This document shows, piece after piece, positions 2,411 through 9,590 of a DNA stretch of 64,000 nucleotides (the stretch's first letter is position 1; each line of letters begins with the position of its first letter). Source of the stretch: Pontibacter russatus. GTDB taxonomy: Bacteria > Bacteroidota > Bacteroidia > Cytophagales > Hymenobacteraceae. The notes below the pieces were generated by a model. It did no database searches, was not told the DNA's origin, and saw nothing but the letters and a program-made list of their open reading frames with translations. The translations under genes were made by a program, and so were the position numbers. The stretch is taken from assembly GCF_009931655.1 (NCBI RefSeq), contig NZ_CP047984.1, positions 2,683,001 to 2,747,000 of the forward strand, read 5' to 3'.

Positions 2411-4165
2411 ATGATAGACTTAAAAAGGGCCTTGCTGCTGCTGTTGCACGCTTCCATGCTGGTGCTCTCCGGCTCTTCACAGGGTGTGGCGCAGGGCAAA
2501 GAGCCAAAGCCGAACGTGCTGATAATATTGACAGACGACCAGGGCTGGGGGGATTTAGGCTCTCATGGAAACAAGCTCCTGGAAACGCCCCATCTGGACG
2601 GGCTGGCCAAAATTTCAACGGAGCTCGAAAGATTCTACGTATCACCTGTCTGTGCGCCCAGTAGGGCCAGCCTGCTCACAGGGCGGTACAACCTTAGAAC
2701 CGGCACAAGCTGGGTAACCCACCGGAAGGAGGTGATGAGAAGCCGGGAGGTCACCATCGCAGAACTCCTTGGTTCCCACAACTACAGAACCGGCTACTAT
2801 GGAAAATGGCACAACGGCCAGCAGTACCCCACTGACCCGATAGGGCAGGGGTTTGAGCGGTTCTTCGGATTCAAAGAAGGGCATTTGAACAACTACTTCA
2901 ACACCAGTCTGACAAGTGGTTTTCAGGAGGTGGAGACAAGCGGTTATGTTCCGGACTTGCTGGCCGACAGCGCTATCTCATTCATCAGGAAGGAAGCGCC
3001 TTTTTTCTGCTACCTGGCGTTCAACACGCCCCACAGCCCTTTTCAGGTGCCGGAGGCGTATTTCAGGAAATACAAGGCCAAAGGGCTCGACGATAGAAAC
3101 GCGGCGGTGTATGCCATGGTGGAGAACATCGACATGAACGTGGGGAGAGTCCTGCGGGCCCTCAGGGAATCCGGGAAGGAGGAGGAGACCATTCTCATAT
3201 TTCTTTCCGACAATGGCCCCAATGGGCGGCGCTACAATGGAGGATTGAAAGGGATCAAGGGCTATGTAGACGAAGGGGGAGTGCGGGTCCCTTTCTTTAT
3301 CCGGTACCCGGCAGGTGGAATAGAGAGCGGGAGGGTCAGCCGGCAGTTTGGCGCCCATATAGATATTCTGCCGACCATCGCCGAACTCACTGGCATAAAG
3401 GTGCCCGACAGCCTGCAAATAGACGGCAGAAGCCTGTTGCCCATCATCAAAGGGAAGGGAGTCGCCTATCCGGGACGCGCGTTCTACACCCACCATGTTG
3501 ACCGGGAGTTCGATGCCATACCGGGTGCGGTAAGAACACACCAATACCTGCTTACGCTGATGCCGGAGGACACCTCCTTCTATGACCTCCTCAAGGACCC
3601 TTCCCAGGAGCATGACCTGGCGGACCGGCATCCGGAGCTGGTAAGGGAGTACATCCGGAAGTACCGGGCATGGTTTGGCGAGGTAACCGGAATGGGAGTG
3701 GAGCCTCCTCTTGTTCAGCTGGGAGATTCCCCGGCCCCGCTCACCTGGCTTCCGGCACCCGAGGCCAGCATATATGGGCGGGTGGATTTCAAGGGGGGAG
3801 AAGGCTGGGCGAACGACTGGCTTGTTAACTGGATAGGCCCTGCCGATTCAGCTGTGTGGGAGGTGGTGGCGAAGCGGCCGGGACAATACAGGGTAAGTGT
3901 GCAGCTCTCATCGGAAAAGCCGCTTGTGATTGCCTTGGAGCTGGATGGCAAGACCCACTATACAAAAATTGAAAGCCCGCAACAGGCGGTGCAGGTGCCT
4001 AACCGAGACCGCGTGCCAAGAGGCGAAGTGGAGGAAATGCGGTGGCCTGAAGTGACCCTGGCGACTGTTCAGATTCCGGCAGGTGTTCACCGGCTGAAAA
4101 TAAGCCCGGCAGGGGAGGTGGAGGGGGAACTGGCCATCAAAGCATTGAAATTAACCACGCTGTAA
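2411..4165 (+). CDS. Secreted sulfatase (family S1, Cys-type) with C-terminal beta-domain
   Basis: Hydrolyses sulfate esters, probably on polysaccharide chains. I chose the ATG that begins MIDLKRALLL because a clean signal peptide (about residues 1-27) follows it; an upstream in-frame start would add 29 unlikely residues. Seen: TDDQ at 41-44 (metal ligands), the maturation motif CAPSR with Cys81 to be converted to formylglycine, GKWH at 131-134, and a DNG motif in the second half. These are the standard S1 catalytic elements. The last roughly 120 residues resemble a beta-sandwich domain found behind some arylsulfatases. Cys-type sulfatases need a formylglycine-generating enzyme or anSME, which is not in the window. 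Pairs logically with the upstream GH88 enzyme. Confidence 0.92.
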   Translation: MIDLKRALLLLLHASMLVLSGSSQGVAQGKEPKPNVLIILTDDQGWGDLGSHGNKLLETPHLDGLAKISTELERFYVSPVCAPSRASLLTGRYNLRTGTSWVTHRKEVMRSREVTIAELLGSHNYRTGYYGKWHNGQQYPTDPIGQGFERFFGFKEGHLNNYFNTSLTSGFQEVETSGYVPDLLADSAISFIRKEAPFFCYLAFNTPHSPFQVPEAYFRKYKAKGLDDRNAAVYAMVENIDMNVGRVLRALRESGKEEETILIFLSDNGPNGRRYNGGLKGIKGYVDEGGVRVPFFIRYPAGGIESGRVSRQFGAHIDILPTIAELTGIKVPDSLQIDGRSLLPIIKGKGVAYPGRAFYTHHVDREFDAIPGAVRTHQYLLTLMPEDTSFYDLLKDPSQEHDLADRHPELVREYIRKYRAWFGEVTGMGVEPPLVQLGDSPAPLTWLPAPEASIYGRVDFKGGEGWANDWLVNWIGPADSAVWEVVAKRPGQYRVSVQLSSEKPLVIALELDGKTHYTKIESPQQAVQVPNRDRVPRGEVEEMRWPEVTLATVQIPAGVHRLKISPAGEVEGELAIKALKLTTL

Positions 4166-4174
4166 GGGTGCCTC

Positions 4175-4200
4175 GTCCTGAAATAGATTGACACTTTTTC
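4175..4200 (+). mobile_element. Solo IS3-type end (remnant)
   Basis: Reads CCTG-aa-ATAG-a-TTGACA-c-TTTTTC. This matches 20 of 24 positions of the orfA-side terminus of the IS3-family element at 7.1-8.7 kb, read inward. No transposase follows: the Rhs fragment starts 22 bases later. It is therefore a leftover end marking a deletion or recombination junction. Confidence 0.6.
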
Positions 4201-4222
4201 TACCCTAATCCTCTGCCGATAG

Positions 4223-5026
4223 CACTACGACCCTTGGGGACTGAATTTAGTGGGCATCGAAAAGCAAGGTTTGCCGGACCATAGGTTCCAGTACAACGGC
4301 AAGGAGAAGCAGACCGAGCTGGGGCTGGGTTGGATGGACTACGGGGCCAGGATGTACGACGCGCAGATCGGCAGGTGGCACGTGGTGGACCCGATGGCGG
4401 ATAATCATCATGGCTTTGCTCCTTATATCTACACCTTAAATAACCCGCTCAGATTCACGGATCCCTTTGGGATGGACACGCTCAGCGCCAATACATCGCA
4501 GCTTCCCAAGAAGAGTGATGTAATGTTCACTGATGATGGGTCTACTGCCACTATGAGCTTTGATGCTCCAGAGATAACTACTCAGGGACAAACTGAAGTA
4601 ACTCAAGACCAGGAATCAGGTGTCGATAAGGTTGAAGTAGTCGGAGATGCTAATGACTATATTGGGGGTGTTATTGCTTTGTTCGATCAAGCAGCAAAAA
4701 TTGGGTTAAAGGAGGTTCAGACTCTGAAAGGTATAAATGCTGCTAACATGCTTAGTCAGGCTAAACAATGGACAAAGTATACAGGGAGAGCTGGTATGGT
4801 AAGTAATTTTGTCGCTGTTACGGTAAGTGGCGCAGAAATGTATAATAGTGGGATGACAGTAGAAAGTACCGTAGAATTTGGAGTTGATGTAAGTATATTA
4901 GCTGTAGGCGCTATACCTTATGTCGGGCCTATAGCTTCAACAGCATTAGGTGCTATGAATTCAGGTGGGGCTTTTAATAATTACAAAAAGGATTTTTCTA
5001 ATTATATCAAAGAAAAAATAGAATAG
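4223..5026 (+). pseudogene. Displaced Rhs-core tip with C-terminal toxin-like domain
   Basis: Only the end of an Rhs (polymorphic toxin) protein is present. Rhs homology ([11 protein letters not shown]) begins right after an in-frame TAG; a GTG at 4250 could restart translation and give 258 residues. Seen from that start: the core hallmarks YGARMYD (31-37), [11 protein letters not shown] (41-51) and [13 protein letters not shown] (64-76), which is the usual boundary with the variable tip. The tip of about 180 residues is rich in Gly/Ala/Val with hydrophobic stretches ([16 protein letters not shown]) and ends in a basic segment. I do not recognise a catalytic motif; a membrane-active toxin is possible. 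No upstream Rhs repeats exist here, so this looks like an orphan tip. A small membrane protein gene follows after 2 bases. Confidence 0.75.
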
Positions 5027-5028
5027 AT

Positions 5029-5383
5029 ATGTTGAACTATAAATTTATGTATTATAAATTTTATATTTCCTTCTTAAAAATAGGTAAAGGAGATAATCCA
5101 GAGTTTAAAGCTTTAATATTTTTTACATTTTGGATATTTCTGTATATATTAAATATATATGGTATCATAGTGTATTATTTTGATAATATTCATGTTCCTG
5201 GATGGATAGGCGGAGCTTTAGGTTTGTTACTTCTTATTTGTGAGATCAAGTCAATTTAAAGATAATATTGACCAAAGTCATAAAATTCAGAGGAGGGGCA
5301 GCGTTTTAAATTTGGTAATTACTATAATGTTTTTATCAGCTCCATTCATAGGGATGGCTGTTATGTTTCTTCTATATAATTAG
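5029..5383 (+). pseudogene. Small membrane protein, candidate Rhs immunity, frameshifted
   Basis: Starts 2 bases after the Rhs-tip stop, the usual place of an immunity gene. The first frame gives 76 residues (to 5259) with two hydrophobic segments (FFTFWIFLYILNIYGIIVYY and GGALGLLLLIC). The +1 frame then continues without a stop to 5383 and encodes a basic linker (SHKIQRRGS) plus another membrane segment (LVITIMFLSAPFIGMAVMFL). Joined, they would give about 118 residues with three or four membrane spans. A one-base indel between about 5230 and 5255 explains this; sequencing error or frameshifting are alternatives. Strongly AT-rich compared with core genes, which suggests transfer together with the toxin tip. 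Confidence 0.6.
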
Positions 5384-5540
5384 TGCTATATTGAAGAATA
5401 TATCCTCTTAAGAGGCTGCTCTGCTTTTATACACAATGGCGCTAGCTTGCAGCCCGTGCTTTTATTATTAGCTGCCTAGTATTACGACATGTTATATAAG
5501 AACCGCTGGGGTTGCAAGTAGAGTTATTGAGTTGAAAATA

Positions 5541-5569
5541 AGAGGTCCGTCTGTTAAGGACGGACTTCT
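5541..5569. terminator. Hairpin terminator
   Basis: 11-base arms (5541-5551 and 5559-5569, one G-U) around a 7-base loop, with AT-rich DNA after it. Probably ends transcription of the Rhs/immunity unit. The rest of the gap from 5384 to the resolvase gene also holds an IS3-like end and a dyad just before the resolvase. Confidence 0.5.
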
Positions 5570-5643
5570 ATTATTTAATAGAATTAACGAAAAATCCTTA
5601 TATTTCATTAGTATAATATTTGCAAAACCTGTCTTACTGTTTT

Positions 5644-5663
5644 GTCCTGATATAGCTTGACAC
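5644..5663 (+). mobile_element. Second solo IS3-type end (remnant)
   Basis: Contains CCTG-at-ATAG-c-TTGACA, the same core as the remnant at 4175 and in the same orientation. Beyond TTGACAC the similarity ends. With the first remnant it brackets the Rhs tip and immunity gene as a direct pair, which fits transfer or rearrangement mediated by IS ends. Confidence 0.5.
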
Positions 5664-5744
5664 CAGCCGTCCCATAAACCCCCCGTTTTACGGGATCCGC
5701 GGACGCCCGGAGGAGCAGAGTGCACCGGCCGATTCCCGAATTGC

Positions 5745-5783
5745 CGTCTCACAAATCAAAAGGGATTTGGTATAATTGAGACG
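5745..5783. promoter_or_regulatory. Nested dyad upstream of resolvase (candidate res or operator site)
   Basis: CGTCTCA (5745-5751) pairs with TGAGACG (5777-5783), and CAAATC (5752-5757) with GATTTG (5764-5769). Serine resolvases commonly bind and recombine at sites just upstream of their own gene, and such sites contain inverted subsites. The dyad ends 17 bases before the chosen start codon. Confidence 0.4.
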
Positions 5784-5800
5784 AGTAAATGAGACATAGC

Positions 5801-6367
5801 ATGAAGATAGGATACGCCCGGGTCTCGGCTCAGGACCAGCGGCTGGAGCTGCAGACCGACGCCCTCGCCCAGTGCGGCTGCCAGCAGATCTACAAAGAGA
5901 GAAAGTTGTGCAAGATCAGGGAGCGCCCGGAGCTGGAGAATATGATAAGCCAGCTCCGCCCCGGTGACACGGTGGTGGTATGGAAGCTCGACCGGCTGGG
6001 CCGCTCGCTCCGGGACCTAATAGAGCTGGTGGCCGAGTTCAGGGAGCGGGGGGTGGAGTTCGTGAGCCTGCAGGACGGCATCAACACGGCCACGCCCACC
6101 GGCCGCTTCACCTTCAACGTCTTCGCCTCCCTGGCCGAGTTCGAGCTCATCCGCGAGCGCACCAACGCCGGGCTGACCTCGGCCAGGGCCAGGGGGAAAA
6201 AGGGCGGCAGACCGGCTGGGCTTTCCAAGACTGCGATGGAGAAGGCCAGGTCGGCCAGGATTCTCTATAACTCCAAGACCAAGACGGTGGAGGAGATAGC
6301 CAGCATCCTGGGCATCGGCCGGGCCACCTGCTACCGCTACCTCAGCCAAACGGCCTCCCTGGGCTGA
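5801..6367 (+). CDS. Serine recombinase / resolvase (Tn3-resolvase type)
   Basis: Catalyses site-specific DNA strand exchange through a serine. The start MKIGYARVS is preferred over the ATG four codons earlier because it is where the family begins. Seen in 188 residues: YARVSAQDQ with catalytic Ser9, WKLDRLGRS (about 61-69) holding conserved Asp64, Arg65 and Arg68, GRFTFNVFASLAEFE (about 101-115), the RERTNAGL linker helix, GKKGGRP, and a C-terminal helix-turn-helix (about 160-182, EEIASILGIGRATCYRYL). Length is normal for a small resolvase/invertase. GC-rich, unlike the Rhs cassette before it. It probably came with a plasmid or transposon; no partner transposase is adjacent. Confidence 0.92.
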   Translation: MKIGYARVSAQDQRLELQTDALAQCGCQQIYKERKLCKIRERPELENMISQLRPGDTVVVWKLDRLGRSLRDLIELVAEFRERGVEFVSLQDGINTATPTGRFTFNVFASLAEFELIRERTNAGLTSARARGKKGGRPAGLSKTAMEKARSARILYNSKTKTVEEIASILGIGRATCYRYLSQTASLG

Positions 6368-6801
6368 GCTACTCCGCGTCCCCTGTCCCTGCTGTCCCAC
6401 CCGGAGTGGTTTTGTGTGGTCGGGCACCAGGAGAATAAGATAAGATGGCAGCAAATGACACCACATGACAGCGGCGACCGAAGCGGGCGTCTGGCACCCA
6501 GCCGGTATAGAACCAGTAAAAAGCCGCCTTTCCAACCGGCAACAAACCGGCAAAAGTCACCTCTTGTAGACAGCCCCAAGCCGGTGCCTTTGACAAAAAA
6601 ACTGTCATTGTAGCAAATAAGGCTGTTCCAAGGGCTTCTCCTGTGAAAAAGGCCTCTGAGACAGCCTTCGCTGCCGGGTCCGGAAACAACCGCGCCTGGC
6701 CCAGGCGGTGCAAATAAAAGAGAGAAGCGTTTGCGTACCATATATTATTATATATATTTACATATATAATAACAGATTGTTAAACAGTCAATTCCTACAA
6801 C
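6368..6801. other. Gene-poor gap with a short AT microsatellite
   Basis: No convincing gene was found here. Short open frames on both strands lack family features. Around 6738-6775 there is a simple AT-rich tract of TATTA and ATATAT units, in contrast to the GC-rich flanks. The stretch probably represents decayed or rearranged accessory DNA. Confidence 0.5.
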
Positions 6802-7062
6802 ATGGTGGTAGCTGTCATCTTAACCGGCGTAATATTGCTGCTGGGTATCGCTTGCAGCGCCCTGGCGCTGCTTATGAGCAATGGAGAAGAGACGGGAGTA
6901 AAGCGCAGGGTGAGGTCAAGTCCTAACCCTGAGCCCTGCAGCCCTTCTGTCCCTGTGCCGGGCGCGCCGCGGCGGGTCAGACACCAGCCCCACCGCCTTT
7001 TCCCGGAGCCTGTTGCCATGGAGGCAGCAGCGGAAAAACCGGAAAGAAAGTTAGCGGTGTGA
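6802..7062 (+). CDS. Small putative membrane protein, uncertain
   Basis: Open frame of 86 residues starting MVVAVILTGVILLLG, with one strong N-terminal membrane segment (about 3-25), followed by a Pro/Arg-rich tail with no recognisable domain. It stands alone between the resolvase and the IS3 element. The hydrophobic start is gene-like, but the low-complexity rest and lack of a recognisable family make this doubtful. Confidence 0.3.
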   Translation: MVVAVILTGVILLLGIACSALALLMSNGEETGVKRRVRSSPNPEPCSPSVPVPGAPRRVRHQPHRLFPEPVAMEAAAEKPERKLAV

Positions 7063-7238
7063 GCCCTGTTCCGGGCGATTTGGGATTTCATCTCTCCGCG
7101 TATCAGAATTCGGCCGATTTAAGGGATGAGTACAGGACTGACCCGTCCTGGAAAAGTTGACGATTTTGAGTTGATAATAAATTTAAAGAATTAATACGGC
7201 TATAGCTTGTCAACTGTATTGATTTTGTCTTCGAATGT

Positions 7239-7258
7239 CTAGTTGAGTACTCAACTAG
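7239..7258. repeat. Perfect 20-bp palindrome
   Basis: CTAGTTGAGT followed by its exact reverse complement, inside the non-coding tail of the IS3 element. It may be a terminator-like or binding element of the insertion sequence. No function is assigned. Confidence 0.6.
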
Positions 7259-7294
7259 CTTGACGCTTTTTTATTCGGCAACCACTGTTATCGT

Positions 7295-7345
7295 AGCAGT
7301 GGACTTGTGGGTAACTCTGCAGGCGTTACCCACAAGTCCACTGCT
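7295..7345 (+). terminator. Strong hairpin with T-tract downstream of transposase gene
   Basis: A perfect 21-base stem (7295-7315 with 7325-7345), 9-base loop, followed by six T on the plus strand. On this strand it would stop transcripts entering the element from the left, which protects the transposase gene from outside antisense reading. This is a common arrangement in insertion sequences. Confidence 0.7.
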
Positions 7346-7353
7346 TTTTTAGC

Positions 7354-8257
7354 TTATATGGCATCCCCCTCACTCACGGAAGACTTATTCTTCCACTGCT
7401 TCGCCAAAGGCTCTTCCTCCTGGTGAGCTTGTGAGGGAGTCAAGCAACTACAGCTCATGTGAGGGCGAAGCGTGTTGTAATTGCGGATACCCTTTTCTAC
7501 AGCCCATAGAGCCTCCACATGTGTCTTGAACACCTGGTTGACCCTGGACTCATGCTTTAAGATACCATTCACCCTTTCGGCTATCTGATCCTCGTGCGCC
7601 TCTCCACTGTCTGTCATGCTGATGGCAATATCTGCTGCTTTTAGCTTCTTCACATATCCAAAGCTGCAGTACTGCACGCCCCGGTCAGAGTGGTGAATAA
7701 GCTTGCCGCCTTGTTTCCTGCGTGTGGCGAGCGCCATTTCTAAAGCTTTCAGACAACCTTCTGTGCTTAGAAACTGATGCAGGCAGTAGCCTACGATCTT
7801 CTTGGAATAAGCATCAGAACCAGAGACAGGTAGTTGAAGTCAAAGCCCGCATAGATGTAGGTCATGTCACACACCCAGACTTGCTCGGTCTCCAGAACTG
7901 GAAGCTGTTTGATCAGGTTAGGATACTCTCTTAAACGATGGTTAGAATGTGTGGTCTTGGGCGCAGATCTTTTATGGCGGATGAGCAGACGGTGTCCCCG
8001 GAGCAACTCATGCAGCCGGTCCCTGCCCATGGCAATCCCGCTTTTCTGCAGGGGTTCCCGCAGCAGTAGACACAGCCTCTTTGTCCCCAGCCCAGGAATC
8101 TCCCTCCTGATGGCAGTGACCAGATCCAACGCCAGCATAGCCTGGGCTGCGCGTTGATCCAGGAATACCCTTCGCTGATGAAACGCTTGACGGCTTTTAC
8201 CAAACAGTCGGCAAAGGTTACCGACACCTACCTTTGCTGTTCCCTTATACTGTAGGG
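7354..8257 (-). pseudogene. IS3-family transposase orfB, frameshifted
   Basis: Encodes the DDE integrase part of an IS3 transposase. The N-terminal half (GNLCRLFGKSRQAF through RHKRSAPKTTH to CDMTYIYAGFDFNYLSLVL) and the C-terminal half (KLIHHSDRGVQYCS to AERVNGILKHE) are in different frames. They join through KKIVGYCLHQFLSTEGCLKA if one base is restored near 7815. The three catalytic residues are all visible: Asp in CDMTY, Asp in HHSDRG and Glu in AERVNG. The 5' end follows orfA in the -1 frame, as is usual for programmed frameshifting in IS3 elements. The internal frameshift should abolish a full-length product. Confidence 0.85.
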
Positions 8258-8635
8258 TCAGGACCGTTTGGCGCCAGGCTTTTTTCGAATCGAAATCTTG
8301 GGGCCCTTTTCCGCCACCCCAATCATCGTGTGCAGGGCCAAAATCATGAGATTAGCCTCCTCCAGGGCTTTCTCCAGCTGTTTGTTTCGCTGCTTTAGGG
8401 CTTCCAGGTTTTGCCTTTGCTTCTCAGTCATGGGAGGTAAAGATATAAGCCCCTGCTCAATTTTTTGCTGGTAGCCAGCCACCCAATGATGGATAGTTTT
8501 GACACTGTCAATGCCAAGTTCCTGCATAATTTGCCTGGCATCTTCGCCGCCGAAAAGCACGCGAAAGGCAGCGGCCTCTTTGACTTCCTCGCCATACTGA
8601 TAGCGGTAAAGTAGTTCTCGACTGTGTTCTTCCAT
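8258..8635 (-). CDS. IS3-family transposase orfA
   Basis: Codes for the DNA-binding subunit of the transposase (125 residues). The N-terminal half contains a helix-turn-helix (about 35-55, DARQIMQELGIDSVKTIHHW). A coiled-coil or leucine-zipper region follows (about 70-105, EKQRQNLEALKQRNKQLEKA), used for multimerisation in this family. It ends GAKRS just before orfB, which lies in the -1 frame. The start codon lies close to the inverted end of the element. The frame is intact, but without a working orfB it cannot transpose by itself. Confidence 0.85.
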   Translation of the reverse strand: MEEHSRELLYRYQYGEEVKEAAAFRVLFGGEDARQIMQELGIDSVKTIHHWVAGYQQKIEQGLISLPPMTEKQRQNLEALKQRNKQLEKALEEANLMILALHTMIGVAEKGPKISIRKKPGAKRS

Positions 8636-8684
8636 AGGGATAGTTCGTTTGAAAAACTGTCAACCTATAGCAGGATAAGACCAA

Positions 8685-9123
8685 GTGGGCATGGATAGCT
8701 ACCTGGCCAACGTGCTGCCCCACCAAAAACAGGAAAAGGTGAAGGAACTGCAGGCCAAAGGGGAGTTTGTGGCCATGACGGGCGACGGCGTGAACGACGC
8801 CCCTGCCCTGGCCCAGGCCGATGTGGGTATCGCCGTGGGCTCCGGCACGGACGTGGCCGCCGAGACAGCCGACATCATCCTGGTCAACAGCAACCCGCAG
8901 GATATCGCCTCCCTCATCCTCTTCGGCAAGGCCACCTACCGCAAGATGATCCAGAACCTGGTCTGGGCCACCGCCTACAACGTCATCGCGCTCCCGCTGG
9001 CTGCTGGTGTGCTTTACCAGCAGGGCATCATGGCCCCCCCCCGCCGTGGGTGCCGCTTTGATGAGCCTGAGCACCGTGATCGTGGCCATCAATGCGCAAC
9101 TGCTGCGCAGGCAGCTCAAATAA
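8685..9123 (+). pseudogene. Copper-transporting P-type ATPase, 5'-truncated and frameshifted
   Basis: Only the C-terminal end of a P1B heavy-metal ATPase remains. Seen: MTGDGVNDAPAL (the hinge motif), the DVGIAVGSGTDVAAETADI stretch, and the last two membrane helices around NLVWATAYNVIALPLAAG. After GIMAPP the frame breaks inside a run of nine C (9034-9042). With eight C the protein would continue PAVGAALMSLSTVIVAINA and end LLRRQLK at 9123, the usual P1B end. The metal-binding, actuator and phosphorylation domains are missing because the IS3 element abuts the 5' side. The sequence fits CopA/CopB-like copper or silver exporters. Whether the C-run change is biological or a sequencing error cannot be told here. 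Confidence 0.85.
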
Positions 9124-9148
9124 CTCATCGCTCACATGGTAGCTGCTC

Positions 9149-9590
9149 ATGGAGAAAAGGCACACTTCCGGTTTTCGGGGCACCCAACGGGTAAGTGGCC
9201 TTGTGTATGTCGTTGGGTTTCTGCCGAACCTGATCTGGGAGAATGCGCAGACCCCGCTGTACTTCGGGTACAATGGGTTTTACAGCCATTTTACAGCATG
9301 CCTTGTTGCCGCTGTGGTGGATGCGCTGGCCATCCTGCAGCTTTACCTGCTGCTGGCGGTTTACCACCGGAGCCTGTACTGGCCAATGGGCGCCGGGCCG
9401 TGGCAGTACTTATTCCTCGCGTTTCTCGGCGGGCTGCTGGCCGCTTGGTTTGAGAAATGGGCATTACACGTGGGCCATGCCCCTTGTACCTGTTCTCCGT
9501 GTCGGGCTTCTCCCCCTGCTGCAACTCATGGTGCTCCCGCTTATTGCCTGCTGGGTTAGCTCCTTTGTTGCCCGGAGGGCACGCACCTAA
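9149..9590 (+). pseudogene. Integral membrane protein with a frameshift near its end
   Basis: The first frame (from MEKRHTSGF) encodes three hydrophobic spans, including GLVYVVGFLPNLIWENAQTP and YLFLAFLGGLLAAWFEKWAL. It then loses similarity at about 9465. The alternative frame continues as WAMPLVPVLRVGLLPLLQLMVLP and ends SSFVARRART at 9590, which looks like a proper fourth helix and basic tail. A single indel near GAAATGGGCATTACACG explains the break. The original product would be about 146 residues, of unknown function. It lies between the broken copper ATPase and the intact Met-rich lipoprotein, so a metal-related role is possible but unproven. Confidence 0.6.

Follow-up and report, generated by a model that had tools for sequence, protein, structure and literature searches.

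A probable displaced Rhs toxin/immunity module in Pontibacter russatus, a genome without a full rhs gene

A model of C-terminal displacement is reportedly due to Jackson and colleagues. Orphan cdiA-CT/cdiI and rhs-CT/rhsI modules of the CDI and Rhs systems have been described by Poole et al. (2011, PMC3150448). In the available text of that work, such orphans consist of a detached toxin tip with its immunity gene, mostly lacking a translation start; their homology has a sharp 5' limit (VENN), they form arrays behind the main gene, and some are damaged by insertion sequences. For Salmonella, the available part of a further study (PMC7043789) describes an orphan rhs whose conserved core end is preceded by a further conserved stretch and which is expressed from a conserved internal promoter, P2. 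The stand-alone cassettes of polymorphic toxins, in the portion of PMC3482391 at hand, are likewise toxin-immunity units; recombination places them onto a 5' gene body that stays constant.

Here we describe a locus in the Pontibacter russatus genome (4,965,849 bases, one contig), located in a stretch of 64,000 nucleotides (genome positions 2683001-2747000), henceforth the window. Like the orphans of PMC3150448, it comprises a detached toxin tip, without an evident translation start at its stub, and an immunity-like gene. Unlike those orphans, as far as they are characterized in the available text, the window module stands alone, in a genome lacking a main gene, and its immunity gene looks broken; the start points found in Pontibacter lie inside the Rhs core. 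The leader found upstream of orphans in sister genomes invites comparison with the conserved Salmonella stretch; unlike the Salmonella orphan as presented in the accessible part of PMC7043789, the window module has no leader, and the Pontibacter leader is a candidate promoter only. Among the papers searched, none names both 'Pontibacter' and 'rhs'.

A single Rhs core in the genome

The orphan frame is made up of an 84-residue Rhs core stub and an unnamed tip (Table 1). TIGR03696 scores 64.9 bits on the translation of 4223-5023, the cut-off being 32.5. In line with a preliminary description of this DNA, the core begins right behind a stop codon (TAG, 4220-4222), near a solo IS-type end, and is not preceded by Rhs repeats, the YD repeat being absent from the entire genome at E 0.1. 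The first listed start codon of the frame is a GTG at 4250. The unit lies 57 nt downstream of the stop codon of a sulfatase gene on the same strand.

A search of the complete genome found one Rhs core, the DNA of the orphan unit is single-copy, and a second Rhs locus was sought in the genome and not found. The main rhs gene that usually, though not obligatorily, lies beside such modules is therefore absent. Together, the sole core and the missing YD repeat indicate an orphan toxin/immunity module without a delivery gene, and with a small membrane-protein gene behind the tip this agrees with the tip and immunity-like gene proposed in the preliminary description. That description also proposed to look elsewhere in the genome for full rhs genes sharing the core, and named the lack of any Rhs locus with this core in the species as evidence against it. 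Full-length rhs genes with this core are present in other genomes of the genus and absent from the genome itself; the lack of such a locus concerns this single genome only. Matches to the whole frame occur in 88 of 204 family genomes, own included.

Table 1. Coordinates of the features of the orphan module and its borders in the window.
Feature	Position	Strand	Remarks
Solo IS/MITE-type end, left	4169..4193	+	Same end as genomic MITE
Spacer, left IS-type end to Rhs stub	4200..4222	+	Closes with TAG; without leader
Orphan Rhs tip frame	4223..5026	+	267 codons and stop; same start as 19 other orphans
Rhs core stub	4223..4474	+	TIGR03696, residues 2-84, E 7.1e-18
Variable tip	4490..5023	+	Last 100 residues (4724-5023) are the toxin domain with relatives L177, L179 and L180
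Immunity-like membrane protein, first 76 residues	5029..5259	+	Open frame; weak profile support
Probable remainder of immunity protein, other frame	5261..5383	+	Hydrophobic; weak profile support
REP-like palindromic stretch	5437..5535	+	Left part repeated in other genomes
Terminator-like hairpin and T run	5540..5575	+	Sequence and fold
Solo IS/MITE-type end, right	5638..5662	+	Left end's orientation

We conclude, with a probability of roughly 0.78, that the locus is a displaced (orphan) Rhs toxin/immunity module, composed of an Rhs core end, a toxin tip and an immunity gene, in a genome that has lost or never had a full rhs gene. The median dN/dS of the stub was 0.09 against full-length cores (7 usable comparisons, the rest being saturated) and 0.12 against orphans (6 comparisons); medians among full-length cores and among orphans were 0.085 (29 comparisons) and 0.082 (40 comparisons), respectively. 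These low values suggest that the divergence of the stub arose mostly under constraint, so that either displacement is recent or exchange maintains the stubs. Combined with an intact tip, a stub value of about 0.09 also implies that any decay is at most recent, which counts against viewing the locus as a relic.

The tip and its membrane-protein partner

The tip is open throughout, a state reached by none of 5000 base shuffles. As the preliminary description had anticipated, it has no nameable domain, with no match in Pfam, NCBIfam or PHROGs. The RxxR and Wx[ST]IP motifs given for the pore-forming Tox-WTIP domain in the available text of PMC3482391 were not seen in it either. The tip is matched in only one of the 204 family genomes, its own, and among 390 genomes of the order by a single relative besides itself (L177, E 4.0e-7; 35% over 81 aa). 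A two-row profile run against 395 genomes of the class gave seven matches besides the own tip. Two of these, L179 (E 3.9e-9, within a 2142-aa frame) and L180 (E 9.9e-6, within a 380-aa frame), are the C-termini of Rhs frames in other families, both frames carrying the TIGR03696 core (E 2.3e-14 and 9.7e-10, respectively), which indicates that the window tip is a real Rhs toxin domain. The remaining five, with E values of 0.002-0.009, were dropped, as inspection by eye revealed no Rhs-like features in their frames. No named toxin domain was found in Pfam for the tips of L179, L180 and L106, and no relatives of the window tip were found in plasmids or viral contigs, nor of its last 100 residues in phages.

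A search of solved structures with the frame gave 17 sequences with E values of 1 or less. They belong to Tc, teneurin-type and other Rhs-type proteins, and all matched within query residues 10-101, covering the core and the beginning of the tip. A match of the tip profile to a solved structure at E 1.3 was taken as chance. The predicted tip structure reached a pLDDT of 30 for the single sequence and 54 with four sequences, and a Foldseek search with it gave no match at E 0.001 or better.

The small membrane-protein gene begins 2 bases past the stop codon of the tip. It appears to be broken near 5259, where its 76-aa frame terminates; beyond this point a hydrophobic continuation in a different frame extends to 5383. 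The preliminary description does not mention this break. Pairing of a tip with a membrane protein recurs across the related tips: the partner of L179 lies 8 nt behind the tip frame (115 aa, three hydrophobic segments), that of L180 4 nt behind (130 aa, four hydrophobic segments), and at L177 a hydrophobic 129-aa frame overlaps the end of the tip and extends past it. Small membrane proteins also follow the tips of L106 and L114, which have no significant similarity to the window tip. In profile comparisons, the partners of L180, L179 and L106 find one another, with 0 of 300 shuffles scoring as well, and that of L114 is recognised less well (4 of 300). Under three profiles, 64, 1 and 9 of 1000 shuffles scored at least as high as the first piece of the window partner, and 7, 44 and 12 at least as high as its second piece; its homology to the partners in L179, L180 and L106 is therefore only suggested. 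A candidate relative of the immunity protein in G183 (E 0.008) was discarded, as it runs antisense to a glycosyltransferase-like frame.

The three to four hydrophobic segments of the partners suggest that the toxin acts on the membrane; neither the solved structures nor the structure prediction lend support to a membrane-acting fold. If such a tip were fused to a full Rhs protein, the shell would carry it into a neighbouring cell, where its helical, glycine- and alanine-rich domain would then probably damage the inner membrane; the small membrane protein would protect siblings.

Start points and leader of orphans in the genus

The window orphan was compared with 24 sister orphans, defined as short frames (≤343 aa) of the same genus among the matches listed, the 24th being a decayed piece in G147. 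Counting the window orphan, 20 of the 25 begin at one codon, H1 (CACTACGAYCC, in some cases with point changes), and the other five at codon F22 (TTCCAGTACAACGG). Most orphans in other genera of the family (9 loci read) retain more of the upstream core, so that the restriction to two start points holds for this genus alone. In G175, 11 orphan tips form an array (L104 and L105, G175:C1:3436600-3459500) whose two runs converge and which is bordered on one side by a full-length rhs frame.

We define a type-A orphan as one that starts at H1 and has a leader of about 70 nt directly upstream; the window orphan has the H1 start and lacks the leader. Directly before 18 type-A orphans, the alignable stretch of about 70 nt consists of a TATCTTTA-like element, a TGCACC-loop-GGTGCA arrangement and the junction. 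The TGCACC/GGTGCA hairpin shows some compensatory changes and many broken pairs, and RNAalifold kept only 3 pairs. The TATCTTTA element, which we take to resemble the Bacteroidetes promoter consensus, gives the leader a promoter-like appearance. A leader model, R1, was built from these 18 orphans, which therefore match by construction, and 101 first-look candidates per genome were scored with it under strict filters. R1 detected the leader at 17 places, spread over 6 of 50 genus genomes; every one of them lies directly before an orphan, so that the leader is detectable before 17 of the 20 orphans that start at H1. The exceptions are one G184 orphan, the G147 piece and the window orphan, in whose genome R1 gave 0 hits, with no leader among the nhmmer hits at this place either. 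The type-B orphans (F22 start) have a different leader in four of five cases; the fifth (G181) is leaderless, and an unrelated 631-aa frame ends 8 nt before it, a placement that resembles that of the window unit behind the sulfatase gene.

That the leader might be the 3' tail of a preceding cassette was considered and set aside, since R1 finds it only before orphans; a role as a tail is possible. The idea came from the resemblance between cassettes (L026, L027, L036, L107, L112 and L029) in the DNA that follows the core, where segments of about 150-720 nt around and behind the immunity genes are similar. The segment 5446-5528 of the window, 74% alike to G181, is not claimed as a cassette end, its left part being a dispersed repeat.

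As a tentative reading, which we hold to be possible though rather doubtful, the orphan tips of Pontibacter may be discrete cassettes with two 5' start points (H1 and F22), most of them with a dedicated, orphan-only leader, and able to settle alone behind unrelated genes. The window unit and G181 would be examples of such lone settling. If this is true, the leader would act in one of two ways: as a promoter common to the orphans that maintains expression of their immunity genes, or as a recombination site that fixes where the junction falls.

Fate of the module and role of the IS-type ends

The module lacks a shell and a leader, has no start codon at the stub and carries an immunity gene that looks broken. 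In all likelihood it is therefore silent and the locus a dormant relic. An alternative that we consider unlikely is that the module is still useful, with read-through from the sulfatase gene or a hidden promoter producing an immunity protein, or a toxin-antitoxin pair, as protection against neighbours. Precedents exist in the available texts of both studies of orphans: orphan modules of E. coli EC93 are transcribed and make immunity protein (PMC3150448), and in Salmonella an orphan rhs driven by its internal promoter behaves as a toxin-antitoxin module (PMC7043789). The window tip frame is moreover intact. However, the break in the immunity frame and the missing leader of the sister orphans both speak against a functional module and for the displaced, silent one.

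The two ends that flank the unit have the same orientation, as the preliminary description had noted. A pattern derived from these two reported sites (TCCTGAWATAGMTTGACA), which therefore match by construction, has 3 matches in the window at up to 3 mismatches, against 0.12 expected. The third (8658-8675, minus strand, 2 mismatches) bounds one side of an IS that spans about 7138-8690 and carries an rve_3 integrase-core gene; the earlier label of IS3-type for the ends agrees with this predicted transposase. Elsewhere in the genome, a MITE of about 185 bp is bounded by the same ends, inverted.

The preliminary description took the unit to be carried or trimmed by these ends. Mobility through them, by composite or one-ended transposition, would account for a cassette framed by two ends of one kind. 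Such ends also occur in 3 of the 12 loci holding the 24 sister orphans, with 5 sites in 103,610 bases at up to 3 mismatches, against 0.2 in shuffles, which indicates that elements of this type do visit rhs loci: one lies about 250 nt behind the immunity gene of an orphan (L106), another about 2.5 kb before an orphan (L113), and three in a region where an integrase-like frame is also present (L107). Nevertheless, none of the 24 sister orphans has such an end at its start. The H1 start shared by the window unit and 19 orphans in sister genomes, moreover, argues that the IS ends did not set the boundary. The window ends themselves are bare and point the same way, with no transposase in 4169-5662 and a single genomic copy of the unit, unlike an IS-borne composite cassette. 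We thus regard mobility through IS ends as very unlikely. For a displaced module, the ends would be remains of mobile elements beside it rather than its means of movement, although loss of the leader may be due to them.

A chance open frame or a misassembly, to which the occurrence of the tip in a single family genome might point, is hardly credible given the core match at E 7.1e-18, the stop-free tip and the relatives that end other Rhs frames.

The surroundings are a mosaic of mobile-element scars. A serine recombinase gene (Resolvase, 5789-6367) belongs to a different repeated element: pieces of 5673-6550 recur in the genome at 4849392-4851404, and similar DNA is found in many genus genomes, multicopy in some. 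Within 7138-9194, the integrase-core gene of the IS is in broken frames, and a P-type-ATPase-like fragment (HAD hydrolase match, 8685-9194), apparently without its 5' part, lies beside the IS. Near-perfect inverted repeats stand between genes at 1849-1921 (35-nt arms, 91%) and 7295-7345 (21-nt arms, 100%). Behind the module, the REP-like repeat GCGCTAGCTTGCAGCCCGTGC (5437-5470) is present in other family genomes too; the folding z-score of 5425-5580, terminator included, is -4.9, and an Rfam search of 3900-6900 gave no match.

Orphan Rhs leftovers are already known from other bacteria, and the window locus, unremarkable as a relic when taken alone, is a further case. With it comes an unnamed family of Rhs tips, whose members in other Bacteroidota have membrane proteins as partners. 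The novel part lies in the leader of the sister genomes and in the restriction of starts to two fixed points. As all 25 orphans examined begin at one of these two points, and given a leader found only before orphans, the capture and retention of tips become directly testable. Related species keep their orphan leftovers as neatly cut units, which are worth closer study.
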